Positions 37,280 to 52,164 of a stretch of DNA of 64,000 nt are shown piece after piece. The DNA comes from Pumilibacter muris (lineage in GTDB: Bacteria > Bacillota > Clostridia > Christensenellales > Pumilibacteraceae). A model generated the notes under the pieces. The model was not told where the DNA came from. It saw only the letters and a program-made list of their open reading frames with translations, and did not search any database. The translations under genes were made by a program, and so were the position numbers. Position 1 is the stretch's first letter. The number at the start of each line of letters is the position of its first letter. The stretch covers positions 343,530-407,529 of the forward strand of contig NZ_CALPCN010000002.1 of NCBI RefSeq assembly GCF_943193045.1. The letters are read 5' to 3'.

Positions 37280-39721
37280 CTAAATAATATCGTCTTCTAC
37301 CGCCGACGAAACAAAGAGTTCTTGTTCGCCGAAATCTTTAACGAGGTTTTTAAAGTTCTCGTAGCTGTCTTTAACGTGCTTGCGGAAGTTCGCCCACGGC
37401 TCGTAGTCGTCGAACACGCCCGTAACATATCCCGTGTCGTACTGCTCCCAAAGATATTCCACTATTTGCGGAAACCCGATTTCAAGCTTTTCGCCGTCGG
37501 CTGTGTGCTTGTTGCCTATTCTGCGCGTAAGCTCGTTGTGAATCGAGGGGTTTTCTTCCAAAAAGCTCGCAACCGCGCCGCCTATAATAAACGTATTGTC
37601 GCCGTCCCAATCGGAGAAAAGGTGCATGTCGTCGTTATAGAACTTGTATAGGCTGTATTCGAGCGTGTCGGCGCCTGTGAAAACGTATATGTGCATTTTG
37701 TTCTTTTGGCTGATACGCGAAATACGCCCAACTATTTGCTCCACAAGGTTAGGGTCGTGCGAAAGGTTTGTGATTATAAGGTTTGAGCAAAACTGCATGT
37801 TAAAGCCCTTTTCCTCGCCGTTTACCGCGAAATAAACCGCGTTTTTGTGCGGGTCTTTGGGGTCGTCTATTTCTCGTCCGCTCTTGTCTTTTATTTTTTT
37901 GCCGCGAAACTTTAAATAGTTTTGGTTGTTTACGTCGCCTTCGCCGTTTAAAACCCGCCCTTTATGAACACTCTCCACCAAACGGATAAACGTGTTTCTT
38001 TCAACGCCCGCGTCGGAGAACACAAGAACTTTTTTATCGGGCAACAGTTCGTTGACTAAGCGGTCGAACTCAACGTATTTGCTCGCGTCGCGCAGTTCCT
38101 CTTGGTCGTAATATTCGAGCGAGTTCTCGACGCCCGCCGTAAGTCCCATTTCAAGACGCGCTTTTCTTTGCCTGCGCTCGTAAAGAGCGTCCTCGTAAGC
38201 TTCTTCTTCGGTTGCGCGTTCGCCTTTGTAGCGTATAAGATGCCCGCGCTTAGGCGGAATAACGTAGTTGATGCAGTTAAATCTGAGCGCGTCCGCTTCT
38301 ACGCCCTTATCGGAAGAAATGCTTTCAAGAAGCCGCTCGGCGAATTTCGCGTCTTTTCTGCGAATAAGTTCTTCCTCTTTTTCGCGCTCGGCGGCGTCGG
38401 TGGCGGTAACCGTGAGTTTAACGGGCGCCATATCGGGCTGGTCAATTATAATGTTTTTAATATACTGCTTCCAGTGAGCGCCCTCGCGCCTACTTAGGAA
38501 GTTCGCCATACTGTTCTCTATGCGCTCGCGCGTTCTCGGGTCTTGCTCGCCCTCGCAAAGCCCGTCGATTACCGCCACACGCACGCGCTCGTCAAAGTCG
38601 CGCGCGGCGAAGTTATCGAAGTTTACGCTTAGCACTTCTTTAATGCTGAGCGGCAAAAGCGACTCGTGCACAACCTTGCTCGTAAGACGGTTACGGGTGA
38701 AAAGTTGGTCTATTAAACCCGAGAGCTGTTTCAATTCCTCGTCGCGGAAATCGTTTAAGCGCGGTTTTCCGAAACAGTAGTTTTTAATGAAGTCGTCCAT
38801 GTCGCGGAACTGCTCGGGACGCACTATTCTCATAAGCCTGTATACGTCGGCGAGCTGACGGCGAATTGGAGTGGCAGACATAAGAATTTTATAAGGAATA
38901 GACGAGTTTTGCCCCAAATGCTCCACAACGGTATAAATTTGAAGCGTCTTATTCGGGTCGGTTGAAAGTAATGCGTCCGCTTCGTCTACCACAAGCATGT
39001 TTATAACGGGCATTTCTCGACTGAACGCGTCGAACGCCGCAAGATAGTTTTCGTCTATTTCGTCGCCGAGTTTTCCGAGAAGCTCTTCGTTTCGTTTTAA
39101 AGCAAGTTGGCGGTCGTAAAAATCTTCACTCTTGTCAACCTCGAACATTTGGTCGGCAAGCCAGTCTTTTTCTTTGGCAATGTTTTCGCGTATGCGCTCT
39201 TTTAAACTCTTTATTTGCGCCAAAATTACGTCGAACGTCATGATATACATCGTAACGCCGCCGTCTTTCTCCTCTTCGAACTTTTTCATTTCGTCGAACG
39301 AGCGGACTATATGCCCGTTGAAATGCGAAGAGAATTTGTCTTTTATTTCCTGCGCCCACTGAAAGTCGAGTTTTTTGGGGCAAAGCAAAAGAGCGTTGTT
39401 AATAGCGCCGCGCTCGGCATATTCGGCAACCGTCATGCAAACTTCAACCGTTTTTCCGAGACCAACTTGGTCGCCGAAAATACCTTTGCCGCGAAAACGC
39501 GCAAGCATTGTGCGCACAGCCTTTTGTTGGTATTCAAACGGTCTGAACGCGGGATAGTGCGGTATTCTCAAATCGCTGAAATCGTCTATTTGGCGAACTC
39601 TTCTCGCCGCCTCGAAAAGCCTGTGATAGCGGTTGTAGCTCTTGGGCGTGGCGTCAACTTTTAAGCCGCCGGGCACGCTCTTTTCGCTGACAACGCATTT
39701 AATGTCAAATTCTTCCGGCAT
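37280..39721 (-). CDS. SNF2/RapA-like DNA translocase (helicase superfamily 2)
   Basis: 813 residues. Superfamily 2 motifs in order: Walker A GDQVGLGKT at 83-91, DEAD-like VVDEADA, motif III MSATPIRR, then C-terminal lobe with motif VI QIVGRISRISQKNK. The spacing fits SNF2-type dsDNA translocases of the RapA/HepA branch; no nuclease or methylase domain is seen. It overlaps the upstream giant protein gene by 17 bases and has GGAGG before the ATG, so the two are co-translated. Cytoplasmic. SNF2 enzymes occur in defence islands and in transcription; its role in an ESCRT-like block is unexplained. Confidence 0.88.
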   Translation of the reverse strand: MPEEFDIKCVVSEKSVPGGLKVDATPKSYNRYHRLFEAARRVRQIDDFSDLRIPHYPAFRPFEYQQKAVRTMLARFRGKGIFGDQVGLGKTVEVCMTVAEYAERGAINNALLLCPKKLDFQWAQEIKDKFSSHFNGHIVRSFDEMKKFEEEKDGGVTMYIMTFDVILAQIKSLKERIRENIAKEKDWLADQMFEVDKSEDFYDRQLALKRNEELLGKLGDEIDENYLAAFDAFSREMPVINMLVVDEADALLSTDPNKTLQIYTVVEHLGQNSSIPYKILMSATPIRRQLADVYRLMRIVRPEQFRDMDDFIKNYCFGKPRLNDFRDEELKQLSGLIDQLFTRNRLTSKVVHESLLPLSIKEVLSVNFDNFAARDFDERVRVAVIDGLCEGEQDPRTRERIENSMANFLSRREGAHWKQYIKNIIIDQPDMAPVKLTVTATDAAEREKEEELIRRKDAKFAERLLESISSDKGVEADALRFNCINYVIPPKRGHLIRYKGERATEEEAYEDALYERRQRKARLEMGLTAGVENSLEYYDQEELRDASKYVEFDRLVNELLPDKKVLVFSDAGVERNTFIRLVESVHKGRVLNGEGDVNNQNYLKFRGKKIKDKSGREIDDPKDPHKNAVYFAVNGEEKGFNMQFCSNLIITNLSHDPNLVEQIVGRISRISQKNKMHIYVFTGADTLEYSLYKFYNDDMHLFSDWDGDNTFIIGGAVASFLEENPSIHNELTRRIGNKHTADGEKLEIGFPQIVEYLWEQYDTGYVTGVFDDYEPWANFRKHVKDSYENFKNLVKDFGEQELFVSSAVEDDII

Positions 39722-42700
39722 AAATTCCTCCGTTTGCTATGTCTACCAAAAGCGCCCTCCCTTTGTAAATAGAGCGCAGGCGCAAATTCGCGGTTTCGCC
39801 CGTCATGGGGTTAATGTAAGGCATTCCGCCTATAACTGCAAGTTCCAAATATTTGTCGCCGAGCGGCGCTAAAAATTTAAAGCTCCAATCTTTTTCGAGC
39901 GACTCCGCCTTTGCCGTTACCACCGATTTTGTTTCGCCGCCGTAAAAATTGCCGTCGTAGAAAATAGGTTGAGTTTGCATGAAATCAACCACACTGCGCG
40001 ACATGGGCTTTACAAACGCGGTTTTTCCGTCGTATGCGCAAAGTAAAATGTTCGAGTCGTTGCGCTCTATCCAATACGCGACACCGTTGTAGCTCACTAT
40101 GCGGTTGCGAAGTATTTTACCCGTGCCCTGCGAATAGGTAACTCCTTTAAGGGTGTGCACCGCGCCGCCTACGAGTTCGGGAGTAAGCGAATAAAGATAG
40201 CGCTCGCCCGCAACAATGAACTTTCCGTCGAGTCCGCACGGCACCGAAGTAATTTTCTCGTCGAGCGCGCGTTTGCCTATTATTTTACCTCGCCGCAAAT
40301 CCACCGATATAACGGTTGAACCGCTTATGCAAAGCAGATAGTCGCCCATAAGGCACATGGGGCGAGTAAGCGGGTCGCCTATGCGAACCGCAAAATCGCT
40401 TTTGCCTTGCGGACTCACATATTCGAGCGAGCACCTGTCGCGCTCGGTGGGCTGAATAAGATATTCGTTCCAAAGCGCTCCCGTGCCGCTTGCGGGGAAA
40501 GCGAGTTGAACGCGAACGGGAGTAATCTGCCGCCCCTCGAAAGCGTCGGCAAGCGAGGCTACGAATAGCGCGTTGCCCGCAGTGTAAAGCGCTCTGCCGT
40601 TTTTCACGAGTATGCCGCTCGTAACTTTGCCCGCAGTGTCGAAAAGTTTTTGATACCTTACTTTTTTGTCGCCGAGAATTTCGCCGTCAGCCGCCATGTT
40701 ATTGTCGCAGCCGCCGTAAAGCGATTCCCAACGCTCTTTATTGTTGTTTTCTATTTTTCCGCGCGACACTTCGCCGTCGCCGAAAAAGCCCTCGCCCGTA
40801 AGCGCTGTTCTGTTTTGGGGGACGTAGCCCGAAAGCGTTATACCCTCGCAACCGTAAAACGCGCAATTACAAAATTCGTCGGCGCCGCCGAGTTTTATTT
40901 CGGTTATTCCTTTCGGTTTATAAAACGCCTTTTCGCCTATAACCGAAACTCCCGATTTAATTTCGGCAACCGTGTTGCCCGGTTGCATAGACGGAACGAA
41001 CGCAACAAGTCTCCCGCCGAAATACACCCCGCCGCCGCTCGTTTCTAGCTTGCCCGAAGAATAAACGTTTTTAAGTTTGTCGCAACCGCAAAACGGATTC
41101 ACGCCAACGTCGGTTACGCTCTGAGGAAGCGAAATTCGCTCTATATCGGAAAACGCGAACGCGCAGTCTCCTATGCTCGTTATACCGCCGTCCACAATTA
41201 TGGATTTGCAATCGCTGCCGCGAAATGCGTTGGCACCTATTCTGTATGCGCCGCCGCTTACGAACACTCTTTCGGTGCCGGAGCCGACATAACGCACAAT
41301 GTTGCCGTTTTCCATAATGAAATCGTCTTTGCGGAAAACATGCCCGTCCTTTTTCTTAGTGTCGCTTTGTCGACGGCGAACGCGTTCGATTGTGTCTACG
41401 AACGCAGTGTCGCCCCTGTCGTATGCGGTGCGGTAAGCGTTCGAATAATAGTTGCTTGCACCCTCGCCGTCGATAGGAGTTTCGCACTCTTCAAGCTGTT
41501 TATCGGAGCGGCATTTGAGCTCCGCTTTAAGCGCGCCCCAATATGCTTTATAGCAAGTTTTGTCGCGCGATATGGCGTCCATAAAATAGGCGGAAGCAAA
41601 ATCGAAGTTCCCGCTTTTAAGAGCGAGCTCGCCCACCTTGCACATATCGTCGAGCGCAAAAACCGTGCCGCCGCATAGTTCGGGCATTTGTCCGAGCGTC
41701 AAAACCTCGTCGATTGCCGAAGCGTATTTATCGAACCCTTCCGCCGAAGCTTTTTTCATAAATTGCGAAAACGCGTTTTTAAGCACGCTGCCCGCGTTTC
41801 CTTTTTGAGCCGCAACATAGCAAGCAAAACTGTCGCCGAGACGGGGGTAGTCTATTTTAAAAATCTCGTCAACGCTCTTAATCTTGTTGTTGCAACATAT
41901 CTTACGAGCGTAAAGCGAACTTTCGCTCGGGAAATAGTCTAAGATACCTTCAAGCATGTCGTCCGCTCTGCCGTATTCGCCGAGCGAAAGAGCGTAGTCT
42001 ATTGCGTTGCAAGTGTTTTTGAGAATAAATTCGGGCGAAGTCCCGTTCATACGCTCCAACACTTTTCTTTGAAGCGAAAACCATTCGGCGGGCGCGATAC
42101 TTCCTTTCGCCGCGTTAAGCCGAACCAAAATTTCGTCGGCGTAGCCGTCGGCGGAATCGTAGGTAAAAGCGGCGTCGAGCGCGCGAGTTGCAAGAGTAGG
42201 TTTTTTGCGGTCTATAAGCCGCATAGCCGCGCCGGTAAGTGCTTTAACATAAGGGCTCGCCTCTTCGGGAGTGGCGCACAAATACAAAGCTTTATCGCAC
42301 AAGCCGAGAGCGGAATCGGTGAAAGCCGATTCGTCGGCGTTGTTTATATATTCCGAAAGATTGCGAGTTTTGGCTTGCGCCAAATACGAGTACCAAAACA
42401 GCTTGCCGCTTTGGCATCCGTTCTTTTGCATTTTTTCGGCTTGACGCAAAGCGTCGTCGAACGCGCCGTTATCGAGGCTGCGTTTTATTCTGTCGAGGTC
42501 GGCAGCTTCGTTCTTTATTTCGGCAACTTGCGTGCGTATTCTCTCTTTGGCGGGGGCAACCGCAACCCGCTCTCGCGATTCTCTACTAAGCTGCGCTCCC
42601 GTGCCGCCCTGTTTTTTAAGCACGCTGTTCAATCTGCGCACTTCGGCGGCTATATTGAGCTCTTGCACAATTTCCACCACGTCGCGTATGCCGCCCACAA

Positions 42701-43430
42701 GAAGGTCGGGCACCTCTAAGGGGCAAACGATTTTCATAGGCTTTTTGCCTACGCCCGTCTTGTGCATGCGCGCGTTTTCAAGCAGCGCGTAGCGGCGGGC
42801 TATTCCGCTCGACGAGAGTTTATCAACAAAGTCGAGCGACGACGCGAAAGCGTAAGCCGCTTCAGCGCAACGCAAAACGGCAATTTCCACGTCGGAAACG
42901 TCGGTAAGACGCAAAACACGCACCCCGCGCTCGGCAAGAACGCTCACAAACTCGCCGCATTTTTCGGAAGAGGCGCCGTCGGATATAACAATAACGTCGT
43001 ATTCGTTTTTCGGTTGCAACGTAGCGGCGCGCGCCGCCTCGATTTTGTCGAGCTTTTGCAAAAGCGCTCTGTCGGACGCGCATTTTTGCCGCAAATATTT
43101 AAAGCCGTCGTCCGATTCGAAAGATTCGGGACGGAATGAATACACTACGGGCGATATCGAATTTTTTTGCTTGTTCTCTTCTATTTTATTTTTTGCGAGA
43201 AATTCCCCGTAACGCGCTTCGGCGGCAACGTCGGCAACACCCGTCATGCTTTGGAAAAACGACAGCGCGCCCACGAAATTATACGATTCGAGCTTTGTGT
43301 AGCCTTCGCTGAGTTTTCCGCTCGATATATCGAACGGTTGCAAGCAGTAGGCGCATACGCACCCGCCGTCGTCGGTGTTATTCAGTTGTGTGCCTCCGCA
43401 AAACGGACAGGCTTTCGAAATATATTCCAT
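39705..43430 (-). CDS. Giant zinc-ribbon / TIR-like / solenoid / LRR / propeller protein
   Basis: 1241 residues. A zinc ribbon (Cys8, 11, 26, 29) and a short helical segment resemble the Firmicutes zinc-ribbon TIR proteins. Residues about 138-245 (YDVIVISD...ARRYALLENAR...KIVC) fit a TIR fold, but the Glu of the usual NEWSRY motif appears missing, so NADase activity is doubtful. Then come a helical solenoid (about 320-690), BspA/LRR_5 repeats (about 740-900, ADAFRG/ISVIGEKAF types) and a WD/PQQ-like propeller (about 930-1241). The composition suggests a scaffold or sensor. It lies 13 bases after the MIT-AAA gene. TIR assignment is moderate; the others are better. Confidence 0.72.
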   Translation of the reverse strand: MEYISKACPFCGGTQLNNTDDGGCVCAYCLQPFDISSGKLSEGYTKLESYNFVGALSFFQSMTGVADVAAEARYGEFLAKNKIEENKQKNSISPVVYSFRPESFESDDGFKYLRQKCASDRALLQKLDKIEAARAATLQPKNEYDVIVISDGASSEKCGEFVSVLAERGVRVLRLTDVSDVEIAVLRCAEAAYAFASSLDFVDKLSSSGIARRYALLENARMHKTGVGKKPMKIVCPLEVPDLLVGGIRDVVEIVQELNIAAEVRRLNSVLKKQGGTGAQLSRESRERVAVAPAKERIRTQVAEIKNEAADLDRIKRSLDNGAFDDALRQAEKMQKNGCQSGKLFWYSYLAQAKTRNLSEYINNADESAFTDSALGLCDKALYLCATPEEASPYVKALTGAAMRLIDRKKPTLATRALDAAFTYDSADGYADEILVRLNAAKGSIAPAEWFSLQRKVLERMNGTSPEFILKNTCNAIDYALSLGEYGRADDMLEGILDYFPSESSLYARKICCNNKIKSVDEIFKIDYPRLGDSFACYVAAQKGNAGSVLKNAFSQFMKKASAEGFDKYASAIDEVLTLGQMPELCGGTVFALDDMCKVGELALKSGNFDFASAYFMDAISRDKTCYKAYWGALKAELKCRSDKQLEECETPIDGEGASNYYSNAYRTAYDRGDTAFVDTIERVRRRQSDTKKKDGHVFRKDDFIMENGNIVRYVGSGTERVFVSGGAYRIGANAFRGSDCKSIIVDGGITSIGDCAFAFSDIERISLPQSVTDVGVNPFCGCDKLKNVYSSGKLETSGGGVYFGGRLVAFVPSMQPGNTVAEIKSGVSVIGEKAFYKPKGITEIKLGGADEFCNCAFYGCEGITLSGYVPQNRTALTGEGFFGDGEVSRGKIENNNKERWESLYGGCDNNMAADGEILGDKKVRYQKLFDTAGKVTSGILVKNGRALYTAGNALFVASLADAFEGRQITPVRVQLAFPASGTGALWNEYLIQPTERDRCSLEYVSPQGKSDFAVRIGDPLTRPMCLMGDYLLCISGSTVISVDLRRGKIIGKRALDEKITSVPCGLDGKFIVAGERYLYSLTPELVGGAVHTLKGVTYSQGTGKILRNRIVSYNGVAYWIERNDSNILLCAYDGKTAFVKPMSRSVVDFMQTQPIFYDGNFYGGETKSVVTAKAESLEKDWSFKFLAPLGDKYLELAVIGGMPYINPMTGETANLRLRSIYKGRALLVDIANGGIYAGRI

Positions 43431-43443
43431 TGTTACCTCAGTC

Positions 43444-44544
43444 TCACAATTTGCCCGCTTTCATCTTTTTGATTCTGTCTACGAATATGTCGGTTAAGGG
43501 GTCTTCGAGCACAAGTTGTCCCGCCTTTCTCGGCGCAAGTATTTTGCGTTTAAAATCAAGGCAAGAGTTTGTTATGCCTCTGCCGCTGAGTCCGTCGCTC
43601 ACTTCCGCCAAAACGTCTAAATCGAGTTCGTTCAGTTCTTGAAGCCCGCGCAATTTGAGTGCGAAAAGCTGCTTGCGGTCGTTCTTGGTGGGCATGGGTA
43701 TGTTTATGCAATCGCCGAAGCGGTCTAATATGCCCGGGTCGATTAAATTTTTAAGGTTGGTTGCCGCGATAATAACTATGTTCTTATTGTCGGTGTTAAA
43801 GCCTTGCAGTTGCCTGAGAAGCTCGGGCACAGATTCTTCCGAAGTTTTGCTGTCGCCGCCGCGCGCGCGCGCTATTTCTTCGAACTCGTCGAAAAAAGCT
43901 ATAACCGCCGTGTTTTTTTGGTGAACGTATCGGCGAATTTCACTGAACGTTCTTTTAATGTTTTTAGCGGTGTTGCCTATAAGCGGGTCAACAAGCGACG
44001 TGCTGTTCACCTCCACAAACGGAAGCCCCACCTCGCAAGCCACAGCCTGCGCGAAAGTTGTTTTGCCGTTGCCCGGAGGACCTTCGAGCAAAATGTTGCC
44101 GCCCGCTTGCAATCCGTAAGCGGCGTAAGCTTCGGGATTTTTTAGCGGCTCGATTAGCAAACTGTGAATGGCAATTTTGGCTTCGTCAAGCCCTATAATG
44201 TCGTTTAGCGTAATTTTATTGTTAGGTTGCGAAAAAATCAGGTCGTATTCCTCGCTCGTATCGTCTATCGACCTAATTTGAGTTTTGTTCGAATCGGATT
44301 CGCCGTTGCGCACCGCTTTGGTGTTTTGAGAAAGACTTTCGGCGGCTTCGATTAACTTTTTCACAGTACGGTAGCGGGCTTTTTTCATTTCGCCCTCGCT
44401 TACCTGCGCAAGGTCTCTGAGAGTTTCGGCGGCAAGAAGGAAAAATTTGCGCGCTTTGTCGTTTTCGCCCGCGTCTTTCGCCGCCATAGCTCTCTTGTAG
44501 TAGTCCATGTAGGTATCGTAAAGTAACCCTTGATTATTCGCCAT
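43444..44544 (-). CDS. Vps4-like AAA ATPase with N-terminal MIT-like domain
   Basis: 366 residues from the ATG at 44542-44544 (GGGAG upstream); the longer frame to 44625 is unlikely. Residues 7-75 are three amphipathic helices with the spacing of an MIT domain (YKRAMAAKDAGENDKARKFFLLAAETL). A linker leads to one AAA module: Walker A GPPGNGKT 155-162, pore-like loop near 183-190, Walker B FFDE 217-220, sensor-1 AATN and second-region-of-homology DRFGD. One AAA plus MIT is the Vps4 layout, which disassembles ESCRT-III polymers. Two genes upstream encode Snf7-like proteins, fitting that reading. A katanin/spastin-like or FtsH-like role is the alternative. Confidence 0.8.
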   Translation of the reverse strand: MANNQGLLYDTYMDYYKRAMAAKDAGENDKARKFFLLAAETLRDLAQVSEGEMKKARYRTVKKLIEAAESLSQNTKAVRNGESDSNKTQIRSIDDTSEEYDLIFSQPNNKITLNDIIGLDEAKIAIHSLLIEPLKNPEAYAAYGLQAGGNILLEGPPGNGKTTFAQAVACEVGLPFVEVNSTSLVDPLIGNTAKNIKRTFSEIRRYVHQKNTAVIAFFDEFEEIARARGGDSKTSEESVPELLRQLQGFNTDNKNIVIIAATNLKNLIDPGILDRFGDCINIPMPTKNDRKQLFALKLRGLQELNELDLDVLAEVSDGLSGRGITNSCLDFKRKILAPRKAGQLVLEDPLTDIFVDRIKKMKAGKL

Positions 44545-44580
44545 TACTGTTCGTCTCCCGTCGTCTCTTTTTTCCGACAC

Positions 44581-44613
44581 AACCGCAACGGGGGTTTTGC
44601 CTCCGCTGCGGTT
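44581..44613 (-). promoter_or_regulatory. Hairpin between Snf7-like gene 1 and the AAA gene
   Basis: AACCGCA (44581-44587) and TGCGGTT (44607-44613) with extra internal pairing (CGGAGG/CCCCCG on the minus strand). No T-run follows. With the 151-base gap it may favour the upstream Snf7-like message over the ATPase, as expected for a polymer subunit made in excess. Inference. Confidence 0.4.
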
Positions 44614-44695
44614 ATGACTTTTCATATTTTTTTGTGTTTAACGGTTGTTTTCGGATATTACTCCTTTTTTTCAAGTCCTTAACCGCGCCGAGCGA

Positions 44696-45280
44696 CTACC
44701 CGTTTATTCCGCTCTTGTTTTTTGCGGCTTCAAGTTGCTTCTCGATTTCGATTTCTTCGGCGTCGAGCTCGTTTGCAAGCTCGCGCTCTATCATCTGACC
44801 GATTTCGTCGTTGGTAGATATTCCCTCGAAATCCATATTACCCATGCTTTCGCTCATAGCCGTCATGAAGTCGTCCATCATCATGGTTTGCTCGTTCATT
44901 TTGTTCATATTGTTATTGAACTCTTTGGCGGCTTTCTGCATTTCTTTAAAGTTGGGCACTTCGCCCATAACCGCGCAAAGCGATTTCATACTCGAAAAGA
45001 ACTCGCCGAGCATGCCTTGCACGTCGCGCGTGTCCATAACTATGCCCATAGTAAGCGACATTTGCTCGGCTTGCTTTTGCTGCTGCATAATCATGCGGAG
45101 CGCGTTCACAGCCATATTGTAGCTCATTTTGTCGCCGCGAGCCTTAGCCGTTTTCGCCTTTGAGAGCAAATCCCTGCGCTTGCCTTCCGCTCTGCGCACG
45201 AACGCTTCAAGATTTTCAACCGTTTTTTCAACCTGCTCGCGGGGGTCCACGTCGGGCTGCTTCTTCTTTTTTCCGAACAT
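44696..45280 (-). CDS. Snf7/CHMP-like (ESCRT-III-like) helical protein 1
   Basis: 194 residues, almost all helix and coil. A basic start (MFGKKKKQ) leads to a long helical hairpin with KRRDLLSKAKTAKARGDKMSYNMAVNALRMIMQQQKQAEQ, followed by the segment VQGMLGEFFSSMKSL and an acidic C-terminal half rich in Met and Asn (MNKMNEQTMMMDDFMTAM) ending in LDAEEIEIEKQLEAA. The charge switch (basic first half, acidic tail) and the hairpin length resemble Snf7/CHMP. The Met-rich stretch is peculiar to this copy. PspA-like proteins are the alternative; the MIT-AAA neighbour favours ESCRT-III type. It is followed by a hairpin. Confidence 0.68.
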   Translation of the reverse strand: MFGKKKKQPDVDPREQVEKTVENLEAFVRRAEGKRRDLLSKAKTAKARGDKMSYNMAVNALRMIMQQQKQAEQMSLTMGIVMDTRDVQGMLGEFFSSMKSLCAVMGEVPNFKEMQKAAKEFNNNMNKMNEQTMMMDDFMTAMSESMGNMDFEGISTNDEIGQMIERELANELDAEEIEIEKQLEAAKNKSGING

Positions 45281-45297
45281 TTTTATCTTTTCTCCCC

Positions 45298-46335
45298 TCA
45301 GTCAAGCGCAATATCGTCTAACGAAGGAATGTCCGACTCCGCGCCTAACGCGGCTCCGCCGGCAATATCGTCGAGACTCGCCGCCTGTTCGCTCATTATA
45401 ACGTCGTCTAATGTCGCGCCGCGCCCCGCCGTTTCGCTGTTGCGGTTAAGCACGCTATCCATAGCGCTCGTTGCCGCGCCGTAAGCGTCTTCCGCTCTTT
45501 CGGTGCGTTGTTGCATCTTTTTGAGCCCTTTCGCAACGTTTGCGCTGAGGTCGGCAAGTTGCTCTATGTCAACGTTGTCGATAGCTCCGATTTCCGCTTG
45601 GTCTTTAAGCTGTTTTAAAAGAGTGTCTACTTTATTAACGTTGCTTTGCGCATTCTTAACGTTTATAAGCGACACATCGAGCGACTTCTTTTTGTTGAGA
45701 AGCGTTTGATATTCTTTATTCATGCGGTCGCGGGCAACTTGGTCGGTAGCCTGCTTATATTTAGCCGCAAGCTTTTTGATTTCCGCGTTAAGAGTGTCAA
45801 GCTCGCTTTGCTTGCTCATTTCAAGAGTTTGCAGTTGATAGCTCTTAACAAGCTGTTCTAAAAGCTTGGAATTTTCCACATAGCGCGACGCTTCTTCCAT
45901 TGCCGACGCATAGCGGTCTTCATACGCGAGTTTAAGCTCTTTTTTGGAGCCCGCGCCTTTATTCGCTTTAAGATACGTTTTAAGTCCGCGCTTTTTGTCG
46001 GCGTCCATAGTGCAACCGCACATTTTTTTGCGAGTGGAAACTATTTGATTTATAATTTTAACCGTTGCGGCGTCCACGCCTTCGGCTTTGTTCTCGTCGA
46101 GGTTTCCGTTATATTCCAAAAGCACTTTTTTAAGAAGCCTTTCAACGTCGAGAACGGTTTGAACAACGGTGCCCGTAGGGCGTATTCCTTGAAGAGCGCT
46201 CGACATAGACGCGATTGCTTCGCGCGCTTCCGCATTATCGGCGCGGTCGTAGAGCTTATCCACAATTCTGGACATCTCGCTTAAATTTTGACGCGACTGT
46301 TCGCGCACAAATTCGGGTGAAAATGCTTTTGCCAT
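45298..46335 (-). CDS. Coiled-coil protein, putative partner of the Snf7-like polymer
   Basis: 345 residues, predicted to be mainly coiled coil (about 150-240 especially) with an acidic tail (PSLDDIALD). A CGC motif near 121-123 (KKMCGCTMDADKK) is notable. No membrane segment or known domain. C-terminal repeats of the type TLDDVIMS, SLDDIAGG, SLDDIALD look like short linear motifs that could dock on the MIT-like domain. It sits 2 bases after the SPFH-like gene and 17 bases before Snf7-like gene 1, so it is co-expressed with both. Role unknown; regulator or nucleator of the polymer is a guess. Confidence 0.7.
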   Translation of the reverse strand: MAKAFSPEFVREQSRQNLSEMSRIVDKLYDRADNAEAREAIASMSSALQGIRPTGTVVQTVLDVERLLKKVLLEYNGNLDENKAEGVDAATVKIINQIVSTRKKMCGCTMDADKKRGLKTYLKANKGAGSKKELKLAYEDRYASAMEEASRYVENSKLLEQLVKSYQLQTLEMSKQSELDTLNAEIKKLAAKYKQATDQVARDRMNKEYQTLLNKKKSLDVSLINVKNAQSNVNKVDTLLKQLKDQAEIGAIDNVDIEQLADLSANVAKGLKKMQQRTERAEDAYGAATSAMDSVLNRNSETAGRGATLDDVIMSEQAASLDDIAGGAALGAESDIPSLDDIALD

Positions 46336-46337
46336 AA

Positions 46338-47090
46338 TTATCTGTCCTCCCTGCCGCTCACCGCGTCGAGCACGCTCTTAAGCTGTTCCGCGCGTTCGTG
46401 AGCAATATCCGTATCGAGTTTAGCCACTTTGGATTCTTTGTGTTTCTCGATAATTTCTTCCGATTCGTCTGTAAATTTGAGACCTTCTATAACCACCTTT
46501 TCAAGATGCAAGCCCATGTGCTGCAAGTCGGGCATCTGGAAAGTGATAGCGCGGCTGAGGTCGTTGATTGCCGCAGTAACTTTTGTGTAGTCGCCTATTT
46601 TATTTAACTCTTTGGAGAGTATGGGCGCAACTTTCGCTATAATTTCTTTTTGAATGAACGATTCGATTTCTTCCGCTTCCACCATGTTGTCTTCGGTGTA
46701 TTCGCTCGGCATTTTCGACCAAAGCTTGCTCGCGTCGTGAATAACGACGTCGCAATGCCCGTAGGCGCTTATCGAAAGCGCTATGCCGCCGAGTTTGCGG
46801 TCTTCGTAAGTTACGGGAGTTTTTCCCACTCCCCACTTAACCGAAGCGGGTTTTTCTCGGTTAAACACTATAAAGCTGAAATTCGCTTTTTTATACTGTT
46901 TTGAAAGTCTGCCGCCTTGATTGAGAAGTTCGTTTTGCCCGTCGCGGAATTCGCCCACATTAACGCCGCCCGCAAAGCACAGCGCCACGCAACCGTCGTC
47001 AACGCGCACAACCGTGTCTTTTTCGAGCTTTTTGATTTCCTGTTTCCAAACCATTGCGCCGTTGCGCTTTTCGATTCTTAAATCCACCAT
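46338..47090 (-). CDS. SPFH/virion-core-like membrane-associated protein
   Basis: 250 residues. The pattern of an early hydrophobic strand region (VRVDDGCVALCFAGGVNVGEF), a mid beta-rich part (ISAYGHCDVVIHD) and a helical tail with EKVVIEGLKFTDESEEI and a charged coil fits the SPFH-like proteins of the YdjI (virion core) type rather than classical stomatins; no membrane anchor is seen at the N-terminus. Such proteins often sit on or next to membranes as ring scaffolds. Two bases separate it from the coiled-coil gene. Assignment is from overall pattern. Confidence 0.62.
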   Translation of the reverse strand: MVDLRIEKRNGAMVWKQEIKKLEKDTVVRVDDGCVALCFAGGVNVGEFRDGQNELLNQGGRLSKQYKKANFSFIVFNREKPASVKWGVGKTPVTYEDRKLGGIALSISAYGHCDVVIHDASKLWSKMPSEYTEDNMVEAEEIESFIQKEIIAKVAPILSKELNKIGDYTKVTAAINDLSRAITFQMPDLQHMGLHLEKVVIEGLKFTDESEEIIEKHKESKVAKLDTDIAHERAEQLKSVLDAVSGREDR

Positions 47091-47107
47091 TTTATATTTC
47101 TCCTTCC

Positions 47108-48286
47108 TTAAATTTTTCTTATTATATCCGTCACGGTGTCGCTAATCACGGCAAAGCTCATATCGCCGAGCTTTTCGCCGCCCGCGCTCACCGTGTAAGT
47201 CATTAGTCCCACAACGTTGCCCGCAGAGTCGAACAGCGGTCCGCCGCTGTTTCCGTGATTGATTGTCATATCAGTTCTAAGCACCATGCGCCCCATGTTG
47301 TCGCGCTCCGCCGCGCGAGACACAATGCCTTTCGAAACGTTGAGCCCCATATTGTTGGGGTTGCCTATCGTGAACACGTCTTCGCCCGCTTTAACGGTGA
47401 GAGCCGAACGCATCAAAAGCCGTTCGCCGTACACAAGCGGAGGTTTTTCGCCCGTGAAAGCAAGCACGGCAACGTCCTCATGCGGCACATACGCCACCGT
47501 CCGAACGGGGTATCTGTGCGGCGCGTCGCCCACCTGAATGCTTATGTTTTCATACGGATAGCCGTTTCCGCTAAGTATAACGTGCGAGTTGGTTACAACG
47601 TAGTCGCCCACCACAATGGCGCCGCTTCCCGCGCTGCCCGTGCAATTCGACCTGCTCGACGCGTGAACCTCCACAACGTTTGTGTACAGTTTATCCACAA
47701 GTTGAACGAAATCGCCGCTAAGCCCCGTGCCGCCGAGTTTTTCGGATTTAAGGCAACCGCCGTCTACCACAATCCCGTAACGAACTTTTAACGTGTTTAT
47801 ACACTTTTCGTCGCTTTTGTCGGCTCCGAGAAGATAATAGAATTTTGCCTGTTCGTCGTCTTGCTCGGTGCCTCGCCCCTCGCGCGCGCACTCCCCAAGA
47901 TTGAAAAGCGCTTTGTTTTCGCCGCGCGACGCCGCCGAATAAAAGAGGTCGTGCGCAAGCTTATAGTCCTGTTCCACTCCCACGCCAGAATAGTACGCAA
48001 TTCCTAATTTATAAGCGTCTTTGGGCGGAAAATTGTCTATGCCCGAACGCACCATATCGGTAAGCGGGTCGGTTTTTTTCGGCTTGGCTTTTTCGGATTT
48101 AACCGTTATTTCGCCGCTTGCAAGCGATATGCTTATAACGGGTTCCGTTTTCTTTTTCGAATCGCCGAACGCGTTTTCGTCCGCCTCGCCAACAATAAGG
48201 TCGCGCTCCGTCAGCTCCGCGTTGCAACCCGCGCAAACACCGGGTTTTGCGGGAGTCATGCAATACGGACACAATTTCGTCAACAT
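47108..48286 (-). CDS. Zinc-ribbon, Sel1-repeat, trypsin-like serine protease (HtrA-like, no PDZ)
   Basis: 392 residues. A zinc ribbon (Cys6, 9, 18, 21) leads through a linker to about two Sel1-type repeats (about 88-158, AYKLGIAYYSGVGVEQDY and ALFNLGECAREGRGTEQD) and a chymotrypsin-fold protease with catalytic His235 (TNSHVIL), Asp271 (HEDVAVL) and Ser347 (GNSGGPLF). No signal peptide, no PDZ. A cytoplasmic trypsin-like protease inside a multigene block is typical of regulated conflict or stress systems. AGGAGG precedes the ATG. It is 17 bases upstream of the SPFH-like gene. Its substrate is probably one of the neighbouring proteins. Confidence 0.87.
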   Translation of the reverse strand: MLTKLCPYCMTPAKPGVCAGCNAELTERDLIVGEADENAFGDSKKKTEPVISISLASGEITVKSEKAKPKKTDPLTDMVRSGIDNFPPKDAYKLGIAYYSGVGVEQDYKLAHDLFYSAASRGENKALFNLGECAREGRGTEQDDEQAKFYYLLGADKSDEKCINTLKVRYGIVVDGGCLKSEKLGGTGLSGDFVQLVDKLYTNVVEVHASSRSNCTGSAGSGAIVVGDYVVTNSHVILSGNGYPYENISIQVGDAPHRYPVRTVAYVPHEDVAVLAFTGEKPPLVYGERLLMRSALTVKAGEDVFTIGNPNNMGLNVSKGIVSRAAERDNMGRMVLRTDMTINHGNSGGPLFDSAGNVVGLMTYTVSAGGEKLGDMSFAVISDTVTDIIRKI

Positions 48287-48303
48287 TAAAAAATCCTCCT
48301 CTT

Positions 48304-48353
48304 TCGATTTTTTTAATAACTGCGGCTCAATGGCTTACGTCTAAAAAAATCGA
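48304..48353 (-). promoter_or_regulatory. Hairpin between Snf7-like gene 2 and the protease gene
   Basis: TCGATTTTTTT (48304-48314) and AAAAAAATCGA (48343-48353) are perfect 11-base arms around 28 bases. Like 44581-44613 it directly follows a stand-alone Snf7-like gene in the transcript and may set subunit ratios. Confidence 0.4.
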
Positions 48354-48374
48354 GCGCTAAGTTTTTCTTTATTT

Positions 48375-48953
48375 TCAGGTGTTGTTCGCCTTTCTCAAAA
48401 GTTTGTCGATTTCGGCGTCCATAGCCGAAACGTCGGCGTTGTCGGCGCCCACCTCGCGGTCAATAAGCGCGTCGAGCTCGCTTTCGAGCCCCGTTCCGCT
48501 CGCAACCGAACCGAACATCATTTCGGATTCGTCCATAAAGCCTTCGAGGTTGTCTTGCATCTGCTCGCTTTGAGCCATAGCCGAACGCATGTTCTTTTTG
48601 GCGCGCGTTATGTTTATTTTTCCGTTAAGGGTGGTAATCTGCTTGCCGAGCGTATCCATGCCCTGCACGAAATCGCGCGTAACCTCGCTCGCGTCTTTCG
48701 TTTGTTGGTTAAGTTCTATGTTCAACAAGAGCTGTTCGGCAACCTGTTGCTGGCGCACCGCCATAGCAAGCCCGCTCCGAGCAAGTTTGTATTGCGAGTC
48801 TATTCCCTGTTGTTTGGCGCGTTTCGCCTCTTCTATATACCGCTTTTTCGCTTCTTCGAGCTTGTTTATGTACGTTCTTATATGGTTTAACGCCTTGCGG
48901 ACAAGCGATTTTTCTTCCCAACGCTTTTCTTCGGCGCTCTTAAAAAGTCCCAT
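48375..48953 (-). CDS. Snf7/CHMP-like (ESCRT-III-like) helical protein 2
   Basis: 192 residues, all helix. Basic N-terminus (MGLFKSAEEKRWEEKS), long hairpin with KKRYIEEAKRAKQQGIDSQYKLARSGLAMAVRQQQVAEQLL, then VTRDFVQGMDTLGKQI, a connecting helix with RAKKNMRSAMAQSEQM and an acidic tail ending ESELDALIDREVG and DAEIDKLLRKANNT, which resemble MIT-interacting (MIM1-like) tails. This is the clearest Snf7 match of the three. The same ARSGLA block occurs in the FtsK fusion at 48976-50889, showing duplication within the block. It starts 22 bases after that gene. Confidence 0.75.
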   Translation of the reverse strand: MGLFKSAEEKRWEEKSLVRKALNHIRTYINKLEEAKKRYIEEAKRAKQQGIDSQYKLARSGLAMAVRQQQVAEQLLLNIELNQQTKDASEVTRDFVQGMDTLGKQITTLNGKINITRAKKNMRSAMAQSEQMQDNLEGFMDESEMMFGSVASGTGLESELDALIDREVGADNADVSAMDAEIDKLLRKANNT

Positions 48954-48975
48954 TTTTTTACTTCTCCCGTTATGA

Positions 48976-50889
48976 TTATATTTTCGTGGAATGAGTTATA
49001 ACCCAATCCGCGACGCGCCTAAGCTCTTCGGTTGAAACGAACGGTGCCTGCATTCTTTTAAGCCCGCCGCCGCTCGGCTCGTTATACAGCATGTCGCCGT
49101 TGCCGAGAAGCGATTCGGCGCCCGCTTGACCCGCGAGCGTTGTGCGGCTATCCTCTTTGCGCGCAACCTTAAACGCGATTTGCACGGGAAAATTGTTTTT
49201 AATCGTTCCCGAAATTACGTCGGTGCTCGGGCGCTGAGTGGCAAGCACTAAATGAATGCCGCTCGCGCGCGCCTTTTGGCTGAGCTTGCGTATAACCGCG
49301 TCGAACTCCTTAGAGAGCGGACTTGTGGATATATCGGCGTATTCGTCTACGAACACCGCAATAAACGGGAGCTTTTCGCTCGGCCCGCACTTGTCGTTGT
49401 ATTCGCCTATGTTGCGGCAACCCATTTGCACCAAAAGGTCGTACCGCCGCTCCATTTCGTCGCAAACAATATTAAACAGTTCGAGCGCGTCCTCGTCGTT
49501 ATCCACAACCTTATCGGTGAGCAAATACGGCGTTCCGTTATAAACCGCCATTTCAACGCGCTTAAAATCGATTATCGCAAGTTTTAAACGCGACGGAGTG
49601 TATTTATACATTAAAGAAGTTATAACCGAATGCAGAAAACAGCTTTTTCCGCTGCCCGTGCTTCCCGCTATCATCATGTGCGGAGCTTTCGCAAGGTCTT
49701 TAATAACGGGCGAACGGTCTATATTCACAGCCAAACAGTAATTAACGTCGCCGTGCGATTCAACGAACGAATCGGAACCCACCATTTCTTTTAAGCCGAT
49801 TACGTCGCGGCGCACGTTGGGCACCTCTATGCCGAACGCGTTTTTGCCGGGTATGGGCACCTCGAAACGCGCTTGCTTGCCGAGCCTCATGGCAATGTCG
49901 GAAACAAGCGGGTCGATTTTTTGCACCGACATCCCGACCGGCATAGCCATTTCGAGCCGAGAGAAAGCGGGACCCACAACGCGGTTAACAACTTTCGCGG
50001 GCACGCCGAGCTCGGCGAGAACCTTTTCCGCTTCGGCGGCGTCCTCTTCGAGTTCGCGCTCGTTCGCTTCGCGCACAGCCGCGTCAACAAGATAATCGTC
50101 TAAAAGTTCGAGCGGCGGAAATTCGAATTCGAATCTCTCGTTTAGCTTTAAATCGAGAGGCTTTTTTTCGGGCGGCAACGGTTTTTGTTGCGCGGGCGCC
50201 GCCTGACGCACCGGCGGAACGGCAGCCGCAGATTTGGGCGGAGCTACCGGCTCGGGAGTAAGTTTATATACTTTGGGGGCTTGGGCGGATACGCTCGCAA
50301 CTGCGGCGGGAGCCGCCTTAGCTTCCTCTTCTTTTTCTTCCAACTCTTTTTGCTTTTTGAGCTCTTCGAGTTGAGCGCCGATTTCTTCCTCTTCGTCTAC
50401 CGCCGCGCTAAGTCCCAAAAGCCCGTCTATTTCGGCGTCGGACACATTCGCCCCCGAAAGACCGGCAAAATTATCCTCCGACTCCATAAGCATATCGTCG
50501 AGCTGCTCTTGAACGCCTTCCATTCCCGCAATCGCTTTTCTCAAAACGTCGCGGGCGGATTTTATGTTGGTGCTCTTGTTTACCTTGCTCAGCTGACGGA
50601 AAATGGTTTCCATTCCCGTCAAAAATTCTTCGGTAACGGTGCCCGTGTCGCGCATCTGCGTAGTAATGTCTATGTTCAAAAGCATTTCGCGCGTGCGGTT
50701 GAGCTGAGTAAGCGTTGAAGCAAGCCCGCTGCGCGCCAAACTATACGAATGTTTATCGCCCTTTTGATATGCGGTTTTTGCGCGCTCAACGAACTTTTGC
50801 TTGTCGCTTTCAAGTTTTTCGAGGTTGTTCGAAAGCTTTGTGCGAGTGCGCTTTATTTGCATTTTCTTTTCGAATTCGTTTTTTCCCAT
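48976..50889 (-). CDS. Snf7-like domain fused to a soluble FtsK/SpoIIIE motor
   Basis: 637 residues. Residues 1-165 repeat the Snf7-like pattern (VERAKTAYQKGDKHSYSLARSGLASTLTQLNRTREMLLNIDITTQMRD; acidic DAEIDGLLGL). A charged, Pro/Ala-rich linker (165-250) follows, then FtsK alpha-domain (about 255-375) and beta-domain: Walker A GSTGSGKS 409-416, Walker B FIAVFVDEYAD around 509-519, and ATQRPS, SRTTLAGQAGAESLLGNGDML. No membrane segments and no gamma (winged-helix) domain. FtsK motors pump DNA; tying one to an ESCRT-III-like polymer subunit is not something I know from any described protein. First gene of the core operon. Confidence 0.85.
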   Translation of the reverse strand: MGKNEFEKKMQIKRTRTKLSNNLEKLESDKQKFVERAKTAYQKGDKHSYSLARSGLASTLTQLNRTREMLLNIDITTQMRDTGTVTEEFLTGMETIFRQLSKVNKSTNIKSARDVLRKAIAGMEGVQEQLDDMLMESEDNFAGLSGANVSDAEIDGLLGLSAAVDEEEEIGAQLEELKKQKELEEKEEEAKAAPAAVASVSAQAPKVYKLTPEPVAPPKSAAAVPPVRQAAPAQQKPLPPEKKPLDLKLNERFEFEFPPLELLDDYLVDAAVREANERELEEDAAEAEKVLAELGVPAKVVNRVVGPAFSRLEMAMPVGMSVQKIDPLVSDIAMRLGKQARFEVPIPGKNAFGIEVPNVRRDVIGLKEMVGSDSFVESHGDVNYCLAVNIDRSPVIKDLAKAPHMMIAGSTGSGKSCFLHSVITSLMYKYTPSRLKLAIIDFKRVEMAVYNGTPYLLTDKVVDNDEDALELFNIVCDEMERRYDLLVQMGCRNIGEYNDKCGPSEKLPFIAVFVDEYADISTSPLSKEFDAVIRKLSQKARASGIHLVLATQRPSTDVISGTIKNNFPVQIAFKVARKEDSRTTLAGQAGAESLLGNGDMLYNEPSGGGLKRMQAPFVSTEELRRVADWVITHSTKI

Positions 50890-51058: not shown

Positions 51059-51532
51059 TTATTTTTTGAGCGACGCCGTAAAATCTTTAACAGTAAGCAA
51101 GCCCTTGTTGATTGCATACAGCTTGTCGTTATATTCTTCGATAATCGAATACGCGGGTCCCACAAGGCTCTTGCCGTAGTCGGTGGTAAAACCTTCGAGC
51201 CCCGTTATATATTCGCTGTTTTCATAAGTGCACAAGCCTTTGTCGAAATACAGGCAGAATTTGCCGTAAGCTATTCGGCTGTTTATAGCCGCAAGCGCGG
51301 TTGCAACGTCCACGCTCCTATCCTGCTTGATTTCGAACGGCATTTGGCTGTAAGTTTCTACTCTTTGTTTTTCGGCGCTCACCGAAAACATGAGCGTTAC
51401 GGGAAAATCGTCGCCCGTTATTGTTACAAACGCAACAAGCTTGTCGGGTTCGCAATCGTATTTAAGCTTCGCTTCGTCCATAAAGCCCGTAATAGCCCCG
51501 TATGCGGCTTTGGCTCTTTCCTGATTGTTCAT
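51059..51532 (-). CDS. YbjN-like protein 2
   Basis: 157 residues, soluble, alpha-beta, with the pattern of YbjN / type III secretion chaperone-like proteins (VAFVTITGDDFPVTLMFSV, INSRIAYGKFCLYFDKGLCTYENSEYITGLEG, IEEYNDKLYAINKGLLTVKDF). It is clearly homologous to the neighbour at 51551-52018. YbjN domains act as chaperone-like or regulatory partners. It lies 18 bases after that gene and is followed by a terminator. Function in this context unknown. Confidence 0.75.
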   Translation of the reverse strand: MNNQERAKAAYGAITGFMDEAKLKYDCEPDKLVAFVTITGDDFPVTLMFSVSAEKQRVETYSQMPFEIKQDRSVDVATALAAINSRIAYGKFCLYFDKGLCTYENSEYITGLEGFTTDYGKSLVGPAYSIIEEYNDKLYAINKGLLTVKDFTASLKK

Positions 51533-51550: not shown

Positions 51551-52018
51551 TTAAAGCTGTTTCGAGAAATCTCTCACAGTCATAAGCCCTTTGTTTATGG
51601 CAAAAAGCTTGTCGTTGTATTTCTCGATTGCCGAGAAAGCGGATATTATAACGCGCTCGGCGTATTCGGCGTTAAAACCTTCGAGCCCCGTGTAAATTTC
51701 GTTCGATTCGAAACTGCAATAAAGGTTTTCGGTGTCTACGCAAAAAGCGCCTATGGCAAGCACTTGATTTATAAAGGTGGTTGCCATTATAAGGTCGGTA
51801 AGCTTTTCTTTTTGAGCCTCGAACGGAATTTTGCTGAACACAAAAGTGCGCTCGTGCTCTTCCTCAACCTTAAAAAGCGTGGTCATGGGGAAATCTTCGC
51901 CGGTGATTTGCAAAATTATGCTGCGTTCGCTTTCGTCGCGTTGGTACTTAAAATTTTTGCCGTCGAGAAAATCGCAGTAGCATTTGAATACGGCGTCAGC
52001 CCTTTCTCTCTTTGTCAT
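51551..52018 (-). CDS. YbjN-like protein 1
   Basis: 155 residues from the ATG at 52016-52018 (AAGGAG upstream; the frame to 52072 lacks a ribosome site). Same fold pattern as the following gene: FPMTTLFKV, FINQVLAIGAFCVDTENLYCSFESNEIYTGLEGFN, IEKYNDKLFAINKGLMTV. The pair arose by tandem duplication. It has a strong promoter and a structured leader. The genes sit immediately upstream of the ESCRT-like core on the same strand; a chaperone role for one of its proteins is a guess. Confidence 0.75.
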   Translation of the reverse strand: MTKRERADAVFKCYCDFLDGKNFKYQRDESERSIILQITGEDFPMTTLFKVEEEHERTFVFSKIPFEAQKEKLTDLIMATTFINQVLAIGAFCVDTENLYCSFESNEIYTGLEGFNAEYAERVIISAFSAIEKYNDKLFAINKGLMTVRDFSKQL

Positions 52019-52044
52019 TTCCTTTTCTCCTTTTATTTCGCGCT

Positions 52045-52164
52045 CCCACCGCGCAAAAATCGCGTGGGGCAAGAATTTACATTGCGTTTTATATTGCCGA
52101 AATTTTATATTTACCTATAATTTCACATGTATATAATTATACACGAAACGCCACTGTTCGTCAA
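52045..52164 (-). promoter_or_regulatory. Promoter and leader hairpin of the YbjN-like pair
   Basis: TTGACG (52159-52164), 17 bases, TATAAT (52136-52141) on the minus strand. The leader is about 110 bases and contains a hairpin CCCACGCG/CGCGGTGGG (plus-strand arms 52045-52053 and 52061-52069, one bulge). Together with the terminator at 52281-52314 this accounts for the gap 52019-52334. Confidence 0.72.

Follow-up and report, generated by a model that had tools for sequence, protein, structure and literature searches.

Organization of the gene block

We analyzed a window of 64,000 nucleotides of Pumilibacter muris (contig NZ_CALPCN010000002.1, positions 343,530 to 407,529; genome assembly of 2.29 Mb). 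The window contains a 13-gene block on the minus strand, running from 52072 down to 31527 with intergenic gaps of -17 to 169 bases. Its seven-gene core encodes candidate counterparts of the endosomal sorting complexes required for transport (ESCRT), namely three Snf7-like (ESCRT-III-like) domains, one of them joined to an FtsK motor in a single protein, together with an AAA ATPase whose N-terminus is predicted to be of the MIT type. The core genes are, in the direction of reading:

48976..50889, minus strand: Snf7-like domain (N-terminal ~165 residues), soluble FtsK alpha domain and FtsK motor in one protein (Pfam, family profile)
48375..48953, minus strand: Snf7-like protein B (Snf7-B), a predicted ESCRT-III-type subunit (family profile, five-helix model, Foldseek)
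47108..48286, minus strand: Sel1-repeat protein carrying an HtrA-like trypsin domain, its N-terminus rich in cysteine (Trypsin_2, E = 2.3e-24; Sel1, 5.9e-13)
46338..47090, minus strand: SPFH/Band 7 protein (Band_7_1, 2.4e-10, above cut-off)
45298..46335, minus strand: coiled-coil protein with C-terminal SLDDI motifs (no family above cut-off)
44696..45280, minus strand: Snf7-like protein A (Snf7-A; Snf7 family profile, 5.1e-26; no Pfam Snf7 match alone)
43444..44544 (longest open reading frame from 44625), minus strand: MIT-AAA ATPase, predicted to disassemble filaments (AAA, predicted three-helix N-terminus)

A sequence-only reading of this DNA had named the ATPase, the three Snf7-like frames, the coiled-coil partner and the 13-gene block, and all were recovered, coordinates and strand included. 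Its description of the spacing as mostly within 25 bases was a little too tight: the genes share one strand, and the core gaps are 22, 88, 17, 2, 17 and 151 bases, four of the six being below 25. The last of them becomes 70 bases if the ATPase starts at 44625. The SLDDI motif ascribed to the coiled-coil partner is present, occurring twice near the C-terminus together with one TLDDV; comparison of this protein with the Snf7 profile gave no clear similarity.

Snf7-like proteins

When the whole genome was searched with a Snf7 family profile, exactly three places were found, all in the block: Snf7-B, itself a member of the profile (E = 5e-68), the FtsK fusion (4.7e-37) and Snf7-A (5.1e-26). These are the two stand-alone and one FtsK-borne domains that had been read from the sequence. 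Searched singly against Pfam, Snf7-B gave a weak Snf7 match (E = 0.075) and a PspA_IM30 match at E = 0.2 (11.7 bits, with the cut-off at 33.9), and Snf7-A gave no Snf7 match. Across the family, 19 of 75 sequences matched Pfam Snf7 with E ≤ 0.01, the best of them at 2.8e-8, and Pfam PspA matched none of the 75 at the same threshold. The profile of these 75 retrieved ten PDB matches with E up to 10. The first seven were CHMP3, CHMP2A, Snf7 and CdvB, with E values from 0.0011 (CHMP3, the best) to 0.3, and the other three were designed proteins; PspA and Vipp1 were absent from these matches. Close to the C-terminus, the family also has a conserved DxEIDxxI box that aligns with CHMP3. Judged from these profiles, the proteins are nearer to the Snf7 clade than to PspA at the family level, as the sequence-only reading had anticipated.

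The predicted structure of Snf7-B consists of helices 7–49, 52–109, 116–150, 156–172 and 176–190, consistent with a predicted five-helix Snf7 fold that includes the expected helical hairpin. Hydropathy analysis revealed no membrane-spanning stretch in the window's Snf7 proteins, the FtsK fusion included. We also scanned the Snf7 C-termini for the MIT-interacting motif 1 (MIM1), using the pattern as generally known. The strict pattern occurred in 1 of 76, and a loose pattern in 38 of 76, compared with 8.1 in shuffled sequences; the FtsK fusion, examined separately, contained one strict match.

In 12 Clostridia loci, Snf7 is preceded by a small protein (family f12, e.g. L013 3390-3986). This protein bears a weak likeness to the Snf7 profile and is possibly a further subunit.

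MIT-AAA ATPase

The window ATPase matches the AAA family PF00004 (E about 1.4e-28 to 1.7e-28) and has its Walker A and B motifs, sensor 1 Asn and Arg finger. Its start may be placed at 44625 or, as in the orthologues of L010 and L025, at 44544. In the predicted model, the N-terminal 77 residues form three helices (2–24, 28–48 and 51–77) with high confidence, and a low-confidence linker joins this bundle to one AAA domain. Judged from the model, we predict an N-terminal MIT bundle. The protein scores 2.0e-24 against the MIT family profile, which includes this sequence, and alone it gave no Pfam MIT match. Of the 43 N-termini compared in this way, 6 matched Pfam MIT at E ≤ 0.1, the best at 1.5e-6, which made it the commonest family there. 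The N-terminal profile covers the entire MIT domain of VPS4B (E = 6e-4). Designed TPR proteins outscore VPS4B MIT, but mostly over profile positions 16–39; one designed bundle aligns with the full profile (E = 9e-4).

Within the AAA domain, the Walker B Asp/Glu, sensor Asn and Arg finger are intact in all 47 family rows, the window's included. A Vps4_C match at E ≤ 0.01 was found in 38 of the 47 rows (best 2.4e-12), and the pore-loop-1 tryptophan (SKWVGE) in 36. This tryptophan is missing from the window ATPase and its close relatives in L009, L010 and L025. A 30-row AAA tree with yeast Vps4, p97 D1/D2 and the genome's own paralogues as references left the deep order unsettled.

The four genomes just named as lacking the pore-loop tryptophan (those of the window, L009, L010 and L025) also carry the Snf7-FtsK fusion. 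In L031, L032, L035, L036, L039, L044 and L056, the gene immediately upstream of Snf7 encodes a second type of MIT-AAA protein, and L032, L035, L036 and L039 have another MIT-AAA gene downstream as well. The upstream protein of L031, L032, L035 and L036 has no PG insert after the sensor, like yeast Vps4.

Linkage and co-occurrence of the two genes

We surveyed 78 loci from other assemblies, drawn from a genome collection, in which the closest named record to Snf7-B was an uncultured Clostridia bacterium (98% identity). In 54 of the 78 loci, Snf7 and MIT-AAA are no more than 5 kb apart; the two genes share a strand in all 54 and are within 100 bases of each other in 27, so that the AAA–Snf7 linkage looked for in relatives was found. 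All 23 Clostridia loci have an MIT-AAA gene within 5 kb; in two of them (L033 and L086) the MIT match is weak, at 22–24 bits. When the 24 remaining genomes were searched whole, MIT-AAA was found elsewhere in 19, including six of the seven whose locus extends 5 kb to both sides. In the complete genome CP054190 (3.89 Mb), for instance, Snf7 is at 0.06 Mb and MIT-AAA at 3.51 Mb.

Among 61 genomes, the window's own and 60 relatives, 17 have Snf7; MIT was found in 16 of these 17 and in no other. The sole Snf7 genome without MIT (G036) is 87% complete. In a Planctomycetota sample of 119 genomes, 24 have Snf7, 23 have MIT and 20 have both. Fisher tests for co-occurrence, uncorrected for kinship, gave 8e-14 for the first set and 7e-16 for the second. 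The Snf7 and MIT-AAA genes travel together, beyond chance. The module is patchy within the genus (four of seven genomes, the window's included) as well as overall (17/61). No PspA over the cut-off was found in the 61 genomes, three of which gave weak partial matches.

Fusions to DNA motors

The fusion protein at 48976..50889 matches FtsK_SpoIIIE (E = 1.6e-45) and FtsK_alpha (1.4e-16). The same Snf7-FtsK architecture occurs in 5 of the 61 genomes (G000, G002, G003, G004 and G017); L010, L025 and L009 are probably identical to G002, G003 and G004, whose scores they share. The sequence-only reading had recognized the FtsK fusion and missed two others in relatives. In L102 (1480-3519; G036), a Snf7 match (3.6e-6; 27.2 bits, with the cut-off at 27.3) stands beside RuvB (5.8e-40) and a NERD nuclease domain (4.6e-21), and in L113 (1301-3343; G028) Snf7 (4.5e-4) is combined with RuvB (2.5e-41). 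From these domain matches, the ESCRT-III-like domain swaps its DNA motor among genomes (FtsK, RuvB or RuvB-NERD). A second gene of the FtsK family, whose open frame spans 1160 residues, is present in the window's genome.

Neighboring genes

The core is flanked by the following genes of the block:

51551..52072, minus strand: YbjN-like protein, opening the block (weak Pfam YbjN match, E = 0.03)
51059..51532, minus strand: second YbjN-like protein (Pfam YbjN, 9e-4, below cut-off)
39705..43430, minus strand: BspA leucine-rich-repeat protein, its N-terminal part akin to TIR-bearing neighbors elsewhere (LRR_5, 7.9e-16)
37280..39721, minus strand: SNF2-type helicase (SNF2-rel_dom, 2.8e-22)
35150..37270, minus strand: cysteine-rich, zinc-finger-like protein (repeated CxxC pairs; no family matched)
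31527..35153, minus strand: membrane protein with Listeria-Bacteroides repeats, the last gene (Flg_new/List_Bact_rpt, 1e-46, seven stretches; hydrophobic segment near residue 57)

Both YbjN-like proteins have homologues at the equivalent position in L009, L010 and L025. Many other Clostridia loci have an SPFH/zinc-ribbon protein ahead of the Snf7/MIT-AAA pair, together with two small proteins; TIR-family proteins and HtrA-like proteases lie near the pair. The SPFH protein of the window resembles the SPFH and zinc-ribbon neighbors of other Clostridia loci (hhalign, 5.2e-7). Its Sel1/HtrA-like protein matches their protease neighbors in phmmer (50–64 bits, seven loci) and, with its own orthologues left out, in hhalign (1.1e-19). 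Residues 5–382 of the leucine-rich-repeat protein align with a family containing TIR_2 proteins (hhalign, 1.3e-13, own orthologues left out); Pfam gave no TIR match for the protein itself. The sequence-only reading had named the coiled coil as a partner but had not picked up the partners of the SPFH, TIR-family and HtrA-like kinds, nor the Planctomycetota branch, where a Ser/Thr kinase bearing zinc ribbons and a protein matching WD40 weakly are among the neighbors.

A gene of one BLAST cluster, the BrxL cluster, lies after the pair and near it in L011, L013, L015, L027 and L028, and the L028 member is BrxL, the Lon-like ATPase of bacteriophage exclusion systems, by both Pfam and PADLOC, the latter run protein by protein without its system rules. 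Among the window proteins scanned, neither Pfam nor PADLOC gave a BrxL match. The best matches of the SNF2 helicase were RapA in NCBIfam (1.1e-28) and BrxHI in PADLOC (1.6e-25).

Proposed function and alternatives

We consider the block likely to be a bacterial module of the ESCRT-III/Vps4 type that serves accessory DNA handling at the membrane, most likely defense against invading DNA. This function is suggested by the interchangeable FtsK, RuvB and RuvB-NERD fusions, by the TIR, BrxL, SNF2-helicase and HtrA-like neighbors, and by the patchiness within the genus. In such a module, the three Snf7-like domains would co-polymerize along the cytoplasmic side of the cell membrane, where the SPFH protein might anchor the polymer, by analogy with YdjI for PspA. 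Insertion of the Snf7-FtsK subunit would fix a DNA translocase where the polymer forms. The MIT-AAA ATPase would grip the C-terminal tails of the Snf7 proteins, pull subunits out and thereby remodel the polymer. Membrane binding, disassembly and the role in DNA handling are all predictions from sequence. More broadly, and tentatively, Clostridia and Planctomycetota may possess bacteria's own ESCRT-III/Vps4 machine, with filaments that carry interchangeable DNA motors or nucleases (FtsK, RuvB, RuvB-NERD) and a DNA-handling, perhaps membrane-anchored, anti-invader role.

Several observations weigh against this interpretation. In a Foldseek search with the Snf7-B model, ranks 1–19 all belonged to the ESCRT-III superfamily, with Vipp1 first appearing at rank 8, but at E values of 0.012 or above and none at 0.001 or below. 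The structural Z of the model was tied with unrelated coiled coils; the fold match by itself is not significant. For the window's own ATPase, no Vps4_C match was found. Because this match and the pore-loop tryptophan are missing and the small tree leaves the deep order open, we do not file the protein as Vps4 proper, yet we predict that it works like Vps4. The MIT-AAA ATPase of the sequence-only reading thus stands as to its AAA domain and three-helix N-terminal bundle, and lacks these two features, found in most of its family.

An ESCRT-type machine for division or abscission appears unlikely, though it is the strongest of the alternatives. In this scenario, the Snf7 polymer would close the septum and the fused FtsK would clear the DNA, as in an abscission checkpoint. 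FtsK usually works at the septum, and the existence of a Snf7-FtsK fusion is in keeping with such a role. Archaeal CdvB and CdvC act in division, according to a 2023 review (PMC7615534). However, the module is present in only four of seven genomes of the genus and 17 of 61 overall, the genome holds the second FtsK-family gene of 1160 residues, and the RuvB and RuvB-nuclease fusions and TIR and BrxL neighbors do not point to division. We infer that an accessory system for DNA at the membrane is to be favored over a core division machine.

An envelope-stress system of the PspA/Vipp1 type, in which diverged relatives of PspA mend damaged membrane, aided by the SPFH protein, and the AAA protein serves as a general chaperone, seems improbable. 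The Band_7_1 kind of the SPFH neighbor and the place of Vipp1 among the Foldseek matches are consistent with it, and in 61 genomes without PspA over the cut-off (three weak partial matches) a Snf7-like protein could be a stand-in. The family matches, 19 of 75 for Snf7 against none for PspA, the PDB profile matches without PspA or Vipp1, and the co-occurrence with MIT-AAA argue against it. That generic coiled coils lie beside an unrelated AAA unfoldase, the ESCRT-III likeness being helical periodicity and the MIT likeness TPR-like helices, is very improbable: the tied structural Z, the TPR matches of the N-terminal profile and the three designed helical proteins among ten PDB matches would fit, but the first seven PDB matches are all ESCRT-III, Pfam Snf7 reaches 2.8e-8, the DxEIDxxI box aligns with CHMP3, Vps4_C is found in 38 of 47 ATPases and the co-occurrence is strong.

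Comparison with known systems

The candidate bacterial ESCRT module shares with the archaeal and eukaryotic ESCRT-III and Vps4/CdvC systems several Snf7-type subunits, an MIT domain with a single AAA domain, and adjacent genes. Some archaeal ESCRT loci also have SPFH and zinc-ribbon partners, as here (PMC10936438). In contrast to those systems, the present one is bacterial, its Snf7 domains are fused to FtsK, RuvB or RuvB-NERD, and it has TIR, BrxL and HtrA-like neighbors; the window ATPase differs from Vps4/CdvC in having no Vps4_C match, and the MIM motifs are non-canonical. PspA/Vipp1/LiaH with the SPFH protein YdjI of Bacillus subtilis likewise combine a polymer protein of the ESCRT-III superfamily with an SPFH partner (PMC8581546, PMC10936438), whereas the window family is nearer to Snf7 by profile, has an MIT-AAA partner and occurs in genomes without PspA over the cut-off. 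The likeness to bacteriophage exclusion (BREX) and other anti-phage systems consists of the BrxL-cluster gene near the pair in five relatives' loci and the SNF2 helicase nearest to BrxHI in PADLOC. BrxL alone was identified, in relatives, with no search aimed at the remaining BREX genes, such as those for the BrxX methylase and BrxZ.

Ravi et al. (2024; PMC11237479) reported bacterial PspA/Snf7 homologues beside AAA+ ATPases and proposed ATP-driven membrane remodeling. The ATPase described there has two AAA domains, the first inactive; transferred Vps4-like ATPases are also mentioned, with Snf7 displaced by another gene, and the Snf7 homologues mentioned bear a transmembrane segment. Compared with those operons, Snf7 and an MIT-single-AAA protein here occur together, and the window Snf7 proteins show no such segment. 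The 2023 review (PMC7615534) finds no clear Vps4 homologue in bacteria, published surveys describe the ESCRT-III/Vps4 pair as absent from bacteria, and the ATPase partner of PspA is an open question in Liu et al. (2021; PMC8281802). Within the extracts of the literature examined, we found neither a bacterial Snf7 and MIT-single-AAA pair nor Snf7-DNA-motor fusions.

If our interpretation is correct, a DNA-handling bacterial ESCRT would break the rule that confines the ESCRT-III/Vps4 pair to archaea and eukaryotes. With both parts present in bacterial sets of two phyla, how this pair arose and was transferred becomes directly testable. The fusions of Snf7 to DNA motors suggest that membrane polymers and DNA are linked, a connection for which we know of no counterpart in a described system.

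A separate observation concerns family f3 (e.g. L037 7879-9312), a neighbor in 35 Planctomycetota loci, in which a stretch resembling a winged helix, together with a coiled coil at the C-terminus, recalls CHMP7, as judged by eye.

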